64,000 nt of DNA from Haloactinopolyspora alba (GTDB taxonomy: Bacteria; Actinomycetota; Actinomycetes; Jiangellales; Jiangellaceae): positions 62,001 through 126,000 of the forward strand of contig NZ_PYGE01000007.1 in NCBI RefSeq assembly GCF_003014555.1, given 5' to 3'. Made by a program: the position numbers and the translations under genes. The number at the start of each line of letters is the position of its first letter. Positions within the stretch are counted from its first letter, which is position 1. This document shows positions 9,090-37,025 of this stretch, piece by piece. The notes beneath the pieces were generated by a model that had not been told where the DNA came from, did no database searches, and was given only the letters and a program-made list of their open reading frames with translations.

Positions 9090-10535
9090 ATGGCTGCGGA
9101 GCCGGTTGACCATCCGAACGTGATCGTCGTGTTCACCGACCAGCAACGGTGGGACACGACCGGCGTCCACGGCAATCCGCTCGACCTGACACCGGAGTTC
9201 GACCGGCTCGCCCGGGCGGGCACCCATGCCGCGCAGGCGTTCACGCCGAACCCGGTGTGCGCGCCGGCCCGGGCCTCCATCCAGACCGGGCAGTACGGGA
9301 CGGCCAACGGCTGCCATCGCAACGCGCTGAAGCTGCCGGGCGAGGCGCGCACGCTGGCGCATCACTTCGGCGACGCCGGCTACAGCACCGGCTACATCGG
9401 CAAGTGGCATCTCGCCGACACCGAGCCGGTGCCGCCCGAGCAGCGGGGCGGCTACGACAGCTGGCTGGGCGCCAACGTGCTGGAGTTCACCTCGGACGCG
9501 TACAAGACCGTGGTGTTCGACGAGGACTCCACACCGGTCATGCTCCCCGGCTACCGCTCGGACGCGCTGTTCGACGCGGCCATCCGGTTCGTCGGCGACC
9601 ACTCCGGCGTCGGCGACGGCACGCGACGGCAGCCGTTCTACCTGTTCCTGTCGGTCATCGAGCCGCATCACCAGAACGAGATCGACGCGTACCCGGCGCC
9701 AGAGGGCTACGCCGAGCGATACGACGGCCGGTGGATGCCGCCCGACCTGGCCGCGCTGTCGGCCGAGGGCGGCACAGCCCACCAGCACATGGGCGGGTAC
9801 TGCGGGCAGGTGCGCCGGGTGGACGAGGGCCTCGGGCGTCTGCTCGACGCGCTGCGCAGCCTCGACCTGCTCGACGACACCATCGTGGCGGTGACCTCCG
9901 ACCACGGCTGCCACTTCAAGACCCGCAACAGCGAGTACAAGCGGTCCTGCCACGACGCGTCCATCCGGGTGCCGATGGCGCTGCGCGGGCCGGGGTTCGA
10001 ACACGGCCGGCGCATCGACCGGCCGGTCAGTACCATCGACCTGCCGCCGACGCTGCTGGATGCCGCGGGCCTGACGGTCCCGGACGAGATGCAGGGACGC
10101 TCGTTCCTGCCGCTGGTGCGCGATCCCGCCGCGGCCTGGCGGGACGAGGTGCTCGTACAGGTCAGCGAGTCCGAGGTCGGTCGGGCGTTGCGGACGCCAC
10201 GGTGGACGTACTACGTGGCCGCGCCGGAGGCGCATCCGTGGGACGACCCCGGTGCGGACCGCTACGTCGAGACCGCGTTGTACGACACGGTGAATGACCC
10301 GCACCAGCTGGTCAACCTGGCCGGACTGTCGTCGCATCGGCCGGTCGCCGACGAGCTGCGGGCGCGGCTGACGGCTCGCATGGTCGACGTGGGGGAGCGG
10401 GAGCCGGAGATCGAGCCGGCGGCGCCGGTCGCGACGTCGCCGCAGCGGCAGGTCGACCCGTACATCCACACCGCCGGCCTGAAACCGGAGCGGCTGGGAC
10501 ACCAGCCACCGCGCGGGCCCGCGGACGCCCGCTGA
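9090..10535 (+). CDS. Cysteine-type sulfatase, last gene of the sugar ABC operon
   Basis: 481 aa with no signal peptide, so probably cytoplasmic. The sulfatase signature is VCAPARASIQTG with Cys57 and Arg61; Cys57 should be converted to formylglycine by a maturase encoded elsewhere. FTDQQRWD (Asp17) supplies N-terminal metal ligands, GKWHL is the conserved Lys/His motif, and TSDHGCH holds later metal ligands. The family hydrolyses sulfate esters of sugars or aryl compounds. Its place behind a sugar importer suggests that sulfated saccharides are brought in and desulfated inside. The ribosome-binding site is AAAAGGGGGA. The stop codon lies within a hairpin shared with the converging fic gene. 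Confidence 0.9.
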   Translation: MAAEPVDHPNVIVVFTDQQRWDTTGVHGNPLDLTPEFDRLARAGTHAAQAFTPNPVCAPARASIQTGQYGTANGCHRNALKLPGEARTLAHHFGDAGYSTGYIGKWHLADTEPVPPEQRGGYDSWLGANVLEFTSDAYKTVVFDEDSTPVMLPGYRSDALFDAAIRFVGDHSGVGDGTRRQPFYLFLSVIEPHHQNEIDAYPAPEGYAERYDGRWMPPDLAALSAEGGTAHQHMGGYCGQVRRVDEGLGRLLDALRSLDLLDDTIVAVTSDHGCHFKTRNSEYKRSCHDASIRVPMALRGPGFEHGRRIDRPVSTIDLPPTLLDAAGLTVPDEMQGRSFLPLVRDPAAAWRDEVLVQVSESEVGRALRTPRWTYYVAAPEAHPWDDPGADRYVETALYDTVNDPHQLVNLAGLSSHRPVADELRARLTARMVDVGEREPEIEPAAPVATSPQRQVDPYIHTAGLKPERLGHQPPRGPADAR

Positions 10536-33138: not shown

Positions 33139-33181
33139 GCCGGGTCGTGGTCGGGAATCCGCATATAGAACCGCGGGAGCA

Positions 33182-33210
33182 TTGACATCTTCCATGATTA
33201 AAAGTACAAA
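33182..33210 (+). promoter_or_regulatory. Promoter of the sulfatase pair
   Basis: TTGACA (33182-33187), 17 bp, then TACAAA (33205-33210), in a stretch of unusually low GC (about 33180-33250) within the 248-bp gap after the MFS gene. A 7-bp inverted repeat CGCGATC / GATCGCG at 33269-33294 (12-bp spacer) lies downstream and could be an operator. The sulfatase start is at 33387. Confidence 0.55.
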
Positions 33211-33386
33211 CTATGTAAGTTGGTGGCGAAAGTGCGAAAGATAATGTGTTTTCGGGCATGACGTCACTCGCGATCGGATGGTCGGTTGATCGCGCGAAGC
33301 CGTCCTGACAGAACCAACGGGCAGTGCCGCCGCGCGGCTCGACGCGCTGCGGCCGCGTCCGCTCACATCGAGTCGAGGGGTAGACG

Positions 33387-34622
33387 ATGGTTCGTCAGCG
33401 ACCACCCAACATCGTGCTGGCCGTTGTCGACGATCTGGGAATCGGTGATCTCGGAACGTACGGTGGAGAGCTCATCCGTACCCGGACCGTCGACCGCCTC
33501 GCACGCACCGGAGTGACCTGCTCGGCGATGTACGCCGCCGCGGCGACGGACACGCCTTCCCGGGCGGGCATCGTCACCGGCAGATTCGGTGCGCGGTTCG
33601 GGCTTCCCGCGTCCCTGCGGCCCGGCGCGACTGCCGGTCTGCCCACCGGCGTGCCCACCGTCGCCTCCGGCCTGCAGGCCGCCGGATACGCGACAGGGCT
33701 GTTCGGGCAGTGGCGACTGGGGTCCGGTCGGGGTCAGCACCCGCTGGACATGGGATTCGATCGCTTCGCCGGAACGCTGTACGGCAGTGACGTCTCGCCG
33801 CTGGGCTGGTACGAGGACCGCGCCGAGGTCGAGGCCGGCATCGACATCGGGTCGACGACCCGTCGGATCACCTCTTCGGCGCAGGACTTCCTGCACGGTC
33901 TCGGTTCCCGCCGACAGCGTGAGAATCCGTTCCTCATGGTGTTGTCGTATCTCGTCCCGCATGCGCCTTTCCGGGTGGATCCGGAGTACGCGAGGTCGTC
34001 GCGCGCGGGCTCGTACGGTGATGTCGTCGAAGCGGTCGATGATCAGCTCGGTGAGCTGCTTCGTGAGATCCGCCGCCGGCAAGGCCGCCGCGAAGACACG
34101 CTGGTCATCTTCACCAGCGACAACGGTCCGCGGTACGAGGGCAGCAACCACGGCCTTCGGGGCCGCAAGCCGGAGGTGATGGACGGCGCCATGCTCGTGC
34201 CGTTCGTCGCGGCCTGGCTCCGAGGCGGACGTGGCAGGACCGACGGCACGCCCCGGTCGCTGCTCGATCTCGCGCCGACGTTGTGGAGTGTCGCCGGCGC
34301 GACTCCGCCGGGGGACGTCGACGGCGCGGACATGTCCGCGTTGTTCGACGGGGGTACACCTGCACGGGGGCCGGTGTACCTGTACTACAACGAGTGGCTG
34401 AACGCCGTGCGCAGTGAACGTTGGAAACTGCACGTCGCGTACGGCAACGACGCACGCGCCTACATGCCGGCGTTGTACGACGTGGCGCGCGATCCTCGTG
34501 AGTCGGTCAACATCGCCGAACTGTTTCCCGACGTCGTCGCCGACCTCACGACGCAGCTCGAAGAGACGCGAGCGGACGTGACCGCCGGTGTGACGTCAGG
34601 AGCCGCTGGAGGAACGACATGA
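33387..34622 (+). CDS. Sulfatase-fold protein with catalytic residues replaced (probable pseudo-sulfatase)
   Basis: 411 aa, ATG at 33387, no signal peptide. The fold is clearly a sulfatase: NIVLAVVDDLGIGDLGTYGG at the start (Asp15, Asp16), PHAPF (His192), TSDNGPRYEG (Asp245, Asn246) and a C-terminal LYDVARDPRESVNIAE. The active site is altered, however. The formylglycine position of the CxPxR motif is Asp55 (TDTPSRAG), and the conserved GKWHLG is GQWRLG (Gln108, Arg110). Formylglycine cannot form from Asp, so classical sulfatase activity is not expected. Its stop overlaps the start of an intact sulfatase by 4 bp, suggesting a regulatory or structural partner, or another hydrolase activity. 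Confidence 0.88.
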   Translation: MVRQRPPNIVLAVVDDLGIGDLGTYGGELIRTRTVDRLARTGVTCSAMYAAAATDTPSRAGIVTGRFGARFGLPASLRPGATAGLPTGVPTVASGLQAAGYATGLFGQWRLGSGRGQHPLDMGFDRFAGTLYGSDVSPLGWYEDRAEVEAGIDIGSTTRRITSSAQDFLHGLGSRRQRENPFLMVLSYLVPHAPFRVDPEYARSSRAGSYGDVVEAVDDQLGELLREIRRRQGRREDTLVIFTSDNGPRYEGSNHGLRGRKPEVMDGAMLVPFVAAWLRGGRGRTDGTPRSLLDLAPTLWSVAGATPPGDVDGADMSALFDGGTPARGPVYLYYNEWLNAVRSERWKLHVAYGNDARAYMPALYDVARDPRESVNIAELFPDVVADLTTQLEETRADVTAGVTSGAAGGTT

Positions 34623-36031
34623 CAACGCATGATGTCGACCGACGGACCGTCCTCAAAGGCGCCGGTGTCGCCGGCGCCGCCACGGTAGCCGGTGGCGTGT
34701 TCGGCGGGTCCGGCTCCGCGCTCGCTCAGTCAGGGGGCGCAGAGGGGCAGCTGCCCGCGAGCAAGCCGAACTTCGTGTTCATCATGACTGACGACCAGGG
34801 GTACGGCGACCTCAGCAGCTACGGCGCGACCTTGACGCGCACCCCGAACATCGACGGCATCGCCCGGCGCGGGATCGCGTTCCGCGAGCACTATGCCGGC
34901 AGCCCCGTGTGCACACCGTCCCGAGCCGCGCTGCTCACCGGCGCGTGGGCGCCCCGTGTCGACATGCCGAACGTCGTTGGGCCGGGGAGCAGTGAAGGTA
35001 TCTCCGAACAGGAGACACTGCTGCCCGAGTACCTGAAACAGGCCGGTTACGCGACGGCGTTGTTCGGCAAGTGGCATCTGGGTGACCAGCCACGGCACCA
35101 CCCCATGGAGCACGGCTTCGACCGCTGGTACGGCATTCCCTATTCGAACGACTACCCGACGATTCCGGTGTACGACGACCACGAGGTGGTGACCGAGATC
35201 GTCTATCCCGGGGCGCTCACGCCCGACCCGGGGCCCGGCGACGACCAGGACTGGCTCACGACGGCTCTGTTCGAGAAGGCTTTCGAGTGGATCGACGACC
35301 ACGCCGACGAGCCGTTCTTCTGCTACATCCCCACCTCCCAGCCGCATGAGCCGCTCGCGTCGGAATACGACGAAAGCCCCGGCGGCCCACACGGCAGCTC
35401 CATCGAGGAGATCGACCAGTTCGTCGGCCGGCTCCTGGAGCAGCTCGACGAGCTCGGCATCCGACACAATACCTGTATCGTCCTGACCAGCGACAACGGA
35501 CCATGGTGGGTGGGTGACACGGGTGGCATGTACGGTCGCAAGAGCGAGACTTACGAAGGCGGCATCAAGGTGCCCTTCGTGATGGAGTGGCCTGCGATGA
35601 TGCGCCGGTCCGGCGTCGACTACGAGCGGCCGACGTGTCACATCGACATCCTGCCGACTTTCTGCGCTGCTGTCGGCGTGCCTCTCGATCCGGACAGGGT
35701 CATCGACGGGCAGAACATTCTCCCCGCGATTCGGACGGGCAGACCCATGGAACACGTCGACATCGCCTACTACCGGGGAAACACGTTGAACGCGATCCGC
35801 CACGGCGACTGGAAGTTGCACGTGCGCCGTGAGAGCAACCTGGGCCGGTTCACCGGTCGGCTGGACTGGGACGCGACCGAGGAGATGCCCCAACTGTTCG
35901 ACCTGAGCCGCGATCCCGGGGAGCACTACGACCTGTCCGATCACTACCCCGAACTGACCGCGCGGCTGCAGACGAGGCTCTCGGACTTCGACGCGAGCCT
36001 GAAGGCGGATCACGCCGCCCATTACGGCTAG
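34619..36031 (+). CDS. Exported cysteine-type sulfatase (Tat signal)
   Basis: 470 aa from ATG at 34619, translationally coupled to the preceding pseudo-sulfatase. The N-terminus DRRTVLKGAGVAGAATVAGG is a twin-arginine signal with probable cleavage after ALAQ (about residue 37). The active site is intact: TDDQGYGDLSSYG, CTPSRAALLTG with Cys98 and Arg102, GKWHLG, TSDNGP and GGMYGRKSETYEGG. Cys98 should be oxidised to formylglycine in the cytoplasm before export, which fits use of the Tat route. It would cut sulfate esters outside the cell. A perfect 36-bp palindrome ends the operon. Confidence 0.92.
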   Translation: MTTHDVDRRTVLKGAGVAGAATVAGGVFGGSGSALAQSGGAEGQLPASKPNFVFIMTDDQGYGDLSSYGATLTRTPNIDGIARRGIAFREHYAGSPVCTPSRAALLTGAWAPRVDMPNVVGPGSSEGISEQETLLPEYLKQAGYATALFGKWHLGDQPRHHPMEHGFDRWYGIPYSNDYPTIPVYDDHEVVTEIVYPGALTPDPGPGDDQDWLTTALFEKAFEWIDDHADEPFFCYIPTSQPHEPLASEYDESPGGPHGSSIEEIDQFVGRLLEQLDELGIRHNTCIVLTSDNGPWWVGDTGGMYGRKSETYEGGIKVPFVMEWPAMMRRSGVDYERPTCHIDILPTFCAAVGVPLDPDRVIDGQNILPAIRTGRPMEHVDIAYYRGNTLNAIRHGDWKLHVRRESNLGRFTGRLDWDATEEMPQLFDLSRDPGEHYDLSDHYPELTARLQTRLSDFDASLKADHAAHYG

Positions 36032-36045
36032 TACCGCGCTGAACC

Positions 36046-36081
36046 GATCTCCACCGCTGGAGGCCTCCAGCGGTGGAGATC
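36046..36081 (+). terminator. Perfect 36-bp palindrome, terminator of the sulfatase operon
   Basis: GATCTCCACCGCTGGAGG is followed directly by its exact reverse complement. As RNA it would form a 16-bp stem with a GGCC tetraloop, starting 15 bases after the sulfatase stop and followed by a short T-containing stretch (ATTTGA). Its strength and position fit a terminator. Confidence 0.75.
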
Positions 36082-36155
36082 ATTTGACCCGACGGGCCAT
36101 GCCGCCATGTCCTCGCGTCGACAATCAAGTGGCAAAGCGTCGTTGTCGGAAAGGG

Positions 36156-36186: not shown

Positions 36187-36357
36187 ATCCTTTCGAACAC
36201 AAGGACAGCACGTCCGACTCGGCCGGGAACCGGCGACGACAGGCGACCGTCAGACGTCGCGGTGCCACCGCGATGCCGTGCCCGGCCGGATACGACCGGA
36301 AGATCACGATCTACAGCTGGAGTAAAGCGTGCTACGATTGCTACGGAGGTGGTGGTC

Positions 36358-36609
36358 GTGACGCGGACCATTCCGCATCGTGAACTGCGGAACAACAGCA
36401 GTGCGGTCCTTCGGGACGTCCAGGCCGGTGAGAGCATCGAGATCAGCAATCACGGCGAGGTCGTCGCCGTGCTCGTGCCCCCCGAGCGCCGATCGCGATC
36501 ACTACCATTCCGAGAGGCGAGGGTTACGGGCGGCTTCAGCGAGTTGCCCCGGGTGCGTCGAGAGAGCTCTGTCCAGGAAGCACTCGACGATCTCCGGGGG
36601 GATCGTTGA
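36358..36609 (+). CDS. Phd/YefM family antitoxin
   Basis: 83 aa from GTG at 36358, eight bases after GGAGG; longer in-frame readings upstream run through non-coding sequence. The N-terminus TRTIPHRELRNNSSAVLRDVQAGESIEISNHGEVVAVL-like pattern is the Phd/YefM fold (about residues 2-42), with the characteristic (H)REL(R)NN.S start. The C-terminus is the flexible toxin-neutralising part. Direct repeats TGCTACG just upstream may be its operator. The stop overlaps the toxin start (TTGA). Confidence 0.88.
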   Translation: MTRTIPHRELRNNSSAVLRDVQAGESIEISNHGEVVAVLVPPERRSRSLPFREARVTGGFSELPRVRRESSVQEALDDLRGDR

Positions 36610-37025
36610 CGGTCTACGTCGAGACATCGGCGGCCGCCAAGCTCCTCGTCGATGAGCAGGAGTCCTCCGCGCTCGCCGCGTTCCTCGACGGACTCGGACC
36701 GAACGACGCGCTGGTGTCGAGCGTGCTGCTGGAGACCGAACTGCGGCGTCTCGCTGTCCGGGAGAACCTGAGCCAGGCGCATGTCACGGATCTGCTCGAT
36801 CGGTTCGATCTTTACGACATGGACCGCGCCGTGTTCGTGGAAGCGGGGCTGCTGTCCGGCGCACATCTGCGCAGTCTGGATGCGCTGCACATCGCCGTGG
36901 CGGTGCGCGTCGAGGCCGCGGTGATGGTCGCCTATGACGTTCGGCAGACGGAGGCGGCGCGTGCCGCCGGGCTGCGTGTGATCGGGCCGACAGCCGCCGC
37001 GCCGGAATCCACGTCGCCACGCTGA
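36606..37025 (+). CDS. PIN-domain toxin (VapC type)
   Basis: 139 aa from TTG at 36606, overlapping the antitoxin stop. Active-site acids: Glu6 in VYVETSAAAKLL (more often Asp in the family), Glu in LLETELRRL, Asp in LDALHIAVA and Asp in VAYDVRQTEAA. The acid replacement at the first position is conservative, so metal binding could persist. It should be an RNase neutralised by the antitoxin at 36358. This is the second such module in the window; its toxin is not closely similar to the one at 14764. Confidence 0.87.
   Translation: MTVYVETSAAAKLLVDEQESSALAAFLDGLGPNDALVSSVLLETELRRLAVRENLSQAHVTDLLDRFDLYDMDRAVFVEAGLLSGAHLRSLDALHIAVAVRVEAAVMVAYDVRQTEAARAAGLRVIGPTAAAPESTSPR

Follow-up and report, generated by a model that had tools for sequence, protein, structure and literature searches.

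A conserved Asp-type sulfatase homologue encoded ahead of a Tat-signal sulfatase in Haloactinopolyspora alba: a candidate non-catalytic subunit

The analysed stretch of Haloactinopolyspora alba DNA, 64,000 nucleotides long and referred to here as the window, contains two overlapping sulfatase-type genes, the first of which encodes Asp in place of the residue that becomes formylglycine. Sulfatases are treated as self-contained enzymes with a maturase as their only special need. To our knowledge, only Cys or Ser can be converted to formylglycine, so the Asp-type protein cannot be an ordinary sulfatase. Based on sequence comparison of the four known pairs, the 411-aa protein may best be described as a conserved non-sulfatase of the sulfatase fold, which would serve its neighbour, the sulfatase of the following gene, as a paralogous subunit without catalytic activity (probability of about 0.4). 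The features of the locus are listed in Table 1.

Table 1. Sulfatase pair and flanking elements, in window coordinates
Feature	Position	Strand	Remarks and basis
Asp-type sulfatase homologue, 411 aa	33387..34622	+	without signal peptide; Asp55; Q108-x-R110; metal ligands intact
Asp55 codon GAC, in DTPSR, Cys/Ser-to-formylglycine column	33549..33551	+	sequence, alignment
GQWRLG codons G107-G112; Gln108 and Arg110 replace Lys and His	33705..33722	+	sequence, alignment
Partner, Tat-signal sulfatase, 470 aa, complete active site (CTPSR, GKWHLG)	34619..36031	+	Pfam, alignment
ATGA stop/start overlap, 4 nt	34619..34622	+	sequence; same overlap in 3/4 pairs
Perfect 16-bp hairpin directly 3' of the pair, weak T run behind	36046..36081	+	folding; absent from consensus scan calls
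A+T-richer gap 5' of the pair, room for its own promoter	33139..33386	.	composition

The first-pass annotation had placed Asp55 in the formylglycine column of the upstream protein, read GQWRLG at the GKWHLG site, and noted the preserved fold motifs and metal-site Asp residues; all of these could be seen in the sequence and alignment. Asp55 lies within AAATDTPSRAG, Gln108 and Arg110 lie within FGQWRLG, and D15, D16, R59, H192, D245, N246, and K261 were all present. The protein matched the Pfam Sulfatase family (PF00884) at 1e-44 and steryl-sulfatase at an E value of 1e-46, with the sulfatase core beginning at residue 7. The best PDB matches of its structure model were arylsulfatase A (Foldseek E 1e-25) and S1_19, the model itself being built from 6 sequences with a pLDDT of 66 and thus too weak for pocket geometry. 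An in-frame TAG is located one codon 5' of the ACG-ATG start of the ORF, which excludes an upstream start with a signal peptide and rules out misannotation of the start.

Comparison with the formylglycine sulfatases (SulfAtlas S1, PF00884; arylsulfatase A and the S1_19 carrageenan sulfatases) revealed that the Asp-type protein shares the fold, the four metal ligands, the Arg of C-x-P-x-R, and the sulfate-site Lys261. It differs in having Asp for Cys/Ser and Gln-x-Arg for Lys-x-His, and both PROSITE-type signatures fail. Among 4058 aligned SulfAtlas sequences, the nucleophile is Cys in 78.9% and Ser in 21.1%, with nothing else listed, and the usual replacements of the Lys are Asp or Arg.

A scan of 84,980 species genomes yielded one close relative of the Asp-type protein, in Actinopolymorpha alba, and whole-genome searches added two more, one from the family of H. 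alba (G015) and one from a different, small order (G082). The four bacteria that carry the Asp-type gene represent three or more families, and the pairwise identity of the four proteins is 53–59%. The conservation of Asp and Gln/Arg among homologues, proposed earlier as a check, was confirmed in all four: Asp occupies the nucleophile position of C/S-x-P-x-R, and Gln and Arg occupy the Lys and His positions of G-K-x-H. The metal ligands D, D, D, N (D15, D16, D245, and N246) were invariant, as were R59 and K261, while H192 was replaced by Ala in G082 and kept in the others. Sequencing error or chance as the source of Asp55 was ruled out, since identical Asp, Gln, and Arg substitutions recur in three further, independent genomes with proteins of this level of identity.

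Close relatives with Cys at position 55, which had been named as the outcome that would count against the proposal, were looked for and not found, since all homologues at 53–59% identity have Asp and Cys appears only at 41–44%, in the nearest Cys-type relatives, in which GKWHLG is intact. Genome searches of the order, class, and phylum samples gave no Cys intermediate above 44% identity; no further Asp-type copy was found in 395 genomes of the class, 393 of the order of A. alba, and 360 of the phylum (samples partly overlap). All other compared sulfatases whose sequence spans the site (about 44, not counting the partners) have Cys; in a few of them, the Lys is replaced by Gln, Met, or Val, with Cys and His retained.

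In the Asp-type genes, third codon positions were less alike than first and second positions, a pattern indicating that the protein is under purifying selection, and the Asp-type proteins have diverged no faster than their partners (53–59% vs 51–63% identity). The stem of the Asp clade was long (0.74) with ordinary tips, which indicates one burst of change and constraint afterwards. It is very improbable that the gene is a decaying, functionless duplicate of its neighbour. Such a duplicate would suit the absence of the pair from 20 of the 22 genomes of the order and the p-AU of 0.33 for the Asp-type protein and partner as a single old clade; however, the frame is open, identical substitutions recur in four genomes at 53–59% identity, no Cys intermediate above 44% turned up in the genomes searched, and conserved orthologues together with the selection pattern contradict decay. 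Absence from related genomes had been put forward as a sign of decay. The absence was borne out, with the pair present in 2/22 genomes, but the decay was not, as far-off copies keep every signature; the distribution therefore reflects patchiness and transfer.

Nine of the ten active-site positions were invariant in the four Asp-type proteins compared to 150 of 411 positions overall (p = 7e-4, against random positions of the same protein, active sites being conserved in any sulfatase). At the sequence level, this shows that the pocket is still under constraint and is not a proof of catalysis. The pocket, consisting of the metal site, Asp55, Gln108, Arg110, and Lys261, probably binds an anionic group and does not hydrolyze a sulfate ester by the usual route; the invariant Asp, Gln, and Arg and the loss of H192 in one member argue against ordinary sulfatase catalysis. 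It could be supposed, though this is rather unlikely, that the protein is a living enzyme of rebuilt chemistry, with the metal site, Asp55, Gln108, and Arg110 acting on another ester or glycan bond, either in the cytosol or after export, in one pathway with the exported sulfatase. The invariant pocket, the three substitutions that set the Asp clade apart from the Cys relatives and are shared by all its members, the long stem followed by normal rates, and the location of two of the four loci among carbohydrate genes would all fit such an enzyme, and chemistry has changed many times in the alkaline phosphatase superfamily. However, we know of no Asp nucleophile in that superfamily, and the residue lost in G082, His192, is the usual proton donor. 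The SulfAtlas nucleophile, being only Cys or Ser, also stands against this enzyme.

All four Asp-type proteins are without a signal peptide. As the nearest Cys relatives also have none, the missing signal may be inherited and says little on export. Furthermore, the x-P-x-R of the maturase recognition motif was intact in all four. A cytosolic sensor or decoy, which binds a sulfated product or, via D-x-P-x-R, the formylglycine-generating enzyme, and controls how the partner is matured or expressed without entering a stable exported complex with it, would agree with the kept motif, the missing signal peptide, the first place of the gene in the unit, and the retention of K261 and the metal ligands. 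This explanation is considered improbable, because Pro and Arg also have a structural role in the sulfatase site and can be retained for that reason without any maturase, the more than 20 other sulfatases of the H. alba genome would be affected by a maturase decoy as well, and the protein is without a regulator domain.

The partner was described earlier as an intact, Tat-type sulfatase that starts within the upstream stop codon, and this description was upheld by GSPVCTPSRAA (VCTPSR), FGKWHLG, a Pfam Sulfatase match at 1e-56, a TAT signal match with an E value of 4e-5, and the ATGA overlap. Whether the Asp-type gene always precedes a Tat sulfatase could be answered positively for the known cases, as the gene that follows it encodes a Cys sulfatase with an RR-type N-terminus typical of Tat in 4/4 genomes. 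The 4-nt ATGA overlap occurs in three of the four pairs, and the A. alba genes are 15–27 nt apart. The TAT_signal matches of the other three partners were weak (0.005–0.04, below the curated cut-off) with the RR motif present, and none was seen in the Asp-type proteins. An independent search using the partner revealed close orthologues (E ≤ 1e-110) in exactly the same 3 of 395 actinobacterial genomes as the Asp-type protein. The earlier suggestion of a pseudo-enzyme serving its partner stands in part: the protein is a conserved sulfatase homologue that lacks the formylglycine residue and has a functional tie to the partner, while it may act as a scaffold, a regulator, or a remodelled enzyme and may stay in the cell or leave it with the partner.

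The pair in the window lies between an MFS transporter and a toxin-antitoxin pair. A Phd/YefM antitoxin and PIN toxin are encoded at 36,262–37,025, directly 3' of the sulfatase pair and before pyrR-pyrB-pyrC, and may mark an insertion hot spot. The upstream gap gave no sigma-70-like match when scanned for a promoter. Region 36,032–36,100, which includes the hairpin, had a folding energy of −37.7 kcal/mol (z −6.0); the hairpin is either a terminator or a repeat element and possibly marks the end of the transcription unit. The PADLOC analysis of the pair gave no match, so no defence system is indicated. The H. alba genome contains more than 20 sulfatases on many contigs, including one more in the window at 9090–10,535.

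At the A. alba locus, the pair is preceded by a solute-binding protein and another sulfatase, with a GH76 gene nearby. At the G015 locus, it is preceded by two more sulfatases, a xylose-isomerase-like protein, a GSDH-PKD-CBM6 protein, and a ROK regulator, and at the G082 locus by a metallophosphoesterase with a FIMAH domain. Two of the four loci are thus situated among carbohydrate genes (SBP_bac_5 and GH76; ROK, CBM6, and more sulfatases), pointing to the use of a sulfated glycan. A FIMAH domain is also inserted within the G082 partner sulfatase (L046, 6928–8601, minus strand), and the neighbouring metallophosphoesterase ends in the same domain type.

Phylogenetic analysis placed the Asp-type proteins in one clade (100/100) and the partners in another (100/99), with identical branching order. 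The H. alba copy was placed next to that of G082 rather than that of G015, a member of the same family as H. alba; the species grouping was rejected by the partner tree (p-AU 0.004), and the Asp-type protein gave a suggestive p-AU of 0.08. The GC3 values of the window pair were 0.80 and 0.86 vs 0.918 (sd 0.021) for the other window genes. The congruent gene trees, the disagreement of the partner tree with the species grouping, and the low GC3 suggest that the two genes travel between genomes together, as a small unit. An origin from a phage or plasmid was not supported, as no close relatives were present in viral contigs, phages, or plasmids, in which the best matches were ordinary sulfatases of about 39% identity or less. 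Recent tandem duplication was rejected as well, since the best tree puts the Asp-type protein and its partner on separate branches, although a topology joining the two in one old clade was compatible with the data (p-AU 0.33).

The constant company of the partner suggests that the "dead" protein is kept for a purpose, and a subunit synthesized next to its partner would be consistent with the strict linkage and the overlap of the reading frames. The two chains would be produced side by side and would associate within the cytoplasm, the compartment in which the partner also acquires its formylglycine. The dead subunit could then stabilize or tune the live sulfatase, and it may be exported as a hitchhiker of the Tat-tagged partner. 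Tat transports folded complexes, and only the partner has a Tat signal, so export of this kind is possible. However, linkage and coupling would also suit two enzymes of one pathway, and nine invariant active-site positions out of ten are more than a pure scaffold needs.

Known systems resemble the proposed subunit in part. Prozymes are dead paralogues that activate a live enzyme, as in trypanosomatid AdoMetDC and deoxyhypusine synthase (PMC5201418, PMC3663545). The likeness is a catalytically dead paralogue retained with one live enzyme, linked in 4/4 genomes here, with inactivity read from residues. The fold and organisms differ, the sulfatase genes overlap, and activation and a complex, which are shown in prozymes, are presumed for the sulfatase pair. 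Tat hitchhiking, in which an untagged subunit is exported with a Tat-tagged partner, has been described for hydrogenases and formate dehydrogenases (PMC10924467). The sulfatase pair likewise encodes a signal-less subunit beside a Tat-tagged one; the known cases, however, contain redox cofactors and do not consist of two sulfatase paralogues, and in the pair the signal-less chain may be exported with its partner. Among sulfatase-fold proteins that have been discussed as non-catalytic, YejM/PbgA/LapC comes closest, and its architecture and partner are different. Its sulfatase-like domain was reported to be without the typical catalytic residues and to have a regulatory role (PMC7018646), while others reported a Mg phosphatase (PMC7576196). 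It is membrane-anchored by 5 TM helices, with Thr at the nucleophile site and no live sulfatase partner, unlike the Asp-type protein, in which the core from residue 7 leaves no N-terminal TM domain and the nucleophile site holds Asp55.

A literature search for inactive or pseudo-sulfatases and for a live/dead sulfatase pair found no prokaryotic case, preprints and most subscription journals lying outside its range. We know of no live/dead paralogue pair in the sulfatase family. A bolder version, which must be regarded as doubtful, is a two-gene mobile unit in which the Asp/Gln/Arg pseudo-sulfatase would be an obligate subunit, assembled during translation and Tat-exported on the live sulfatase, as the first heteromeric live/dead sulfatase; alternatively, Asp55 at the kept metal site would form a formylglycine-free catalytic centre. 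A conserved live/dead pair would mean that one lineage or more depends on a second sulfatase chain without catalytic function, or that it catalyses without formylglycine. In both cases, the annotation of both genes as "sulfatase" is wrong for the first gene. The small size of the pair makes it accessible to tests in a laboratory host.

Another tandem of two sulfatases, both signal-less and of the Cys type, was observed in family relatives (loci L031, L034, L037, L038, L041, L059, L060, and L061). In one of its members, HWHD replaces the DD metal motif and GQQHES replaces GKWHLG with the Cys kept, and in L031 the frames of the tandem overlap.
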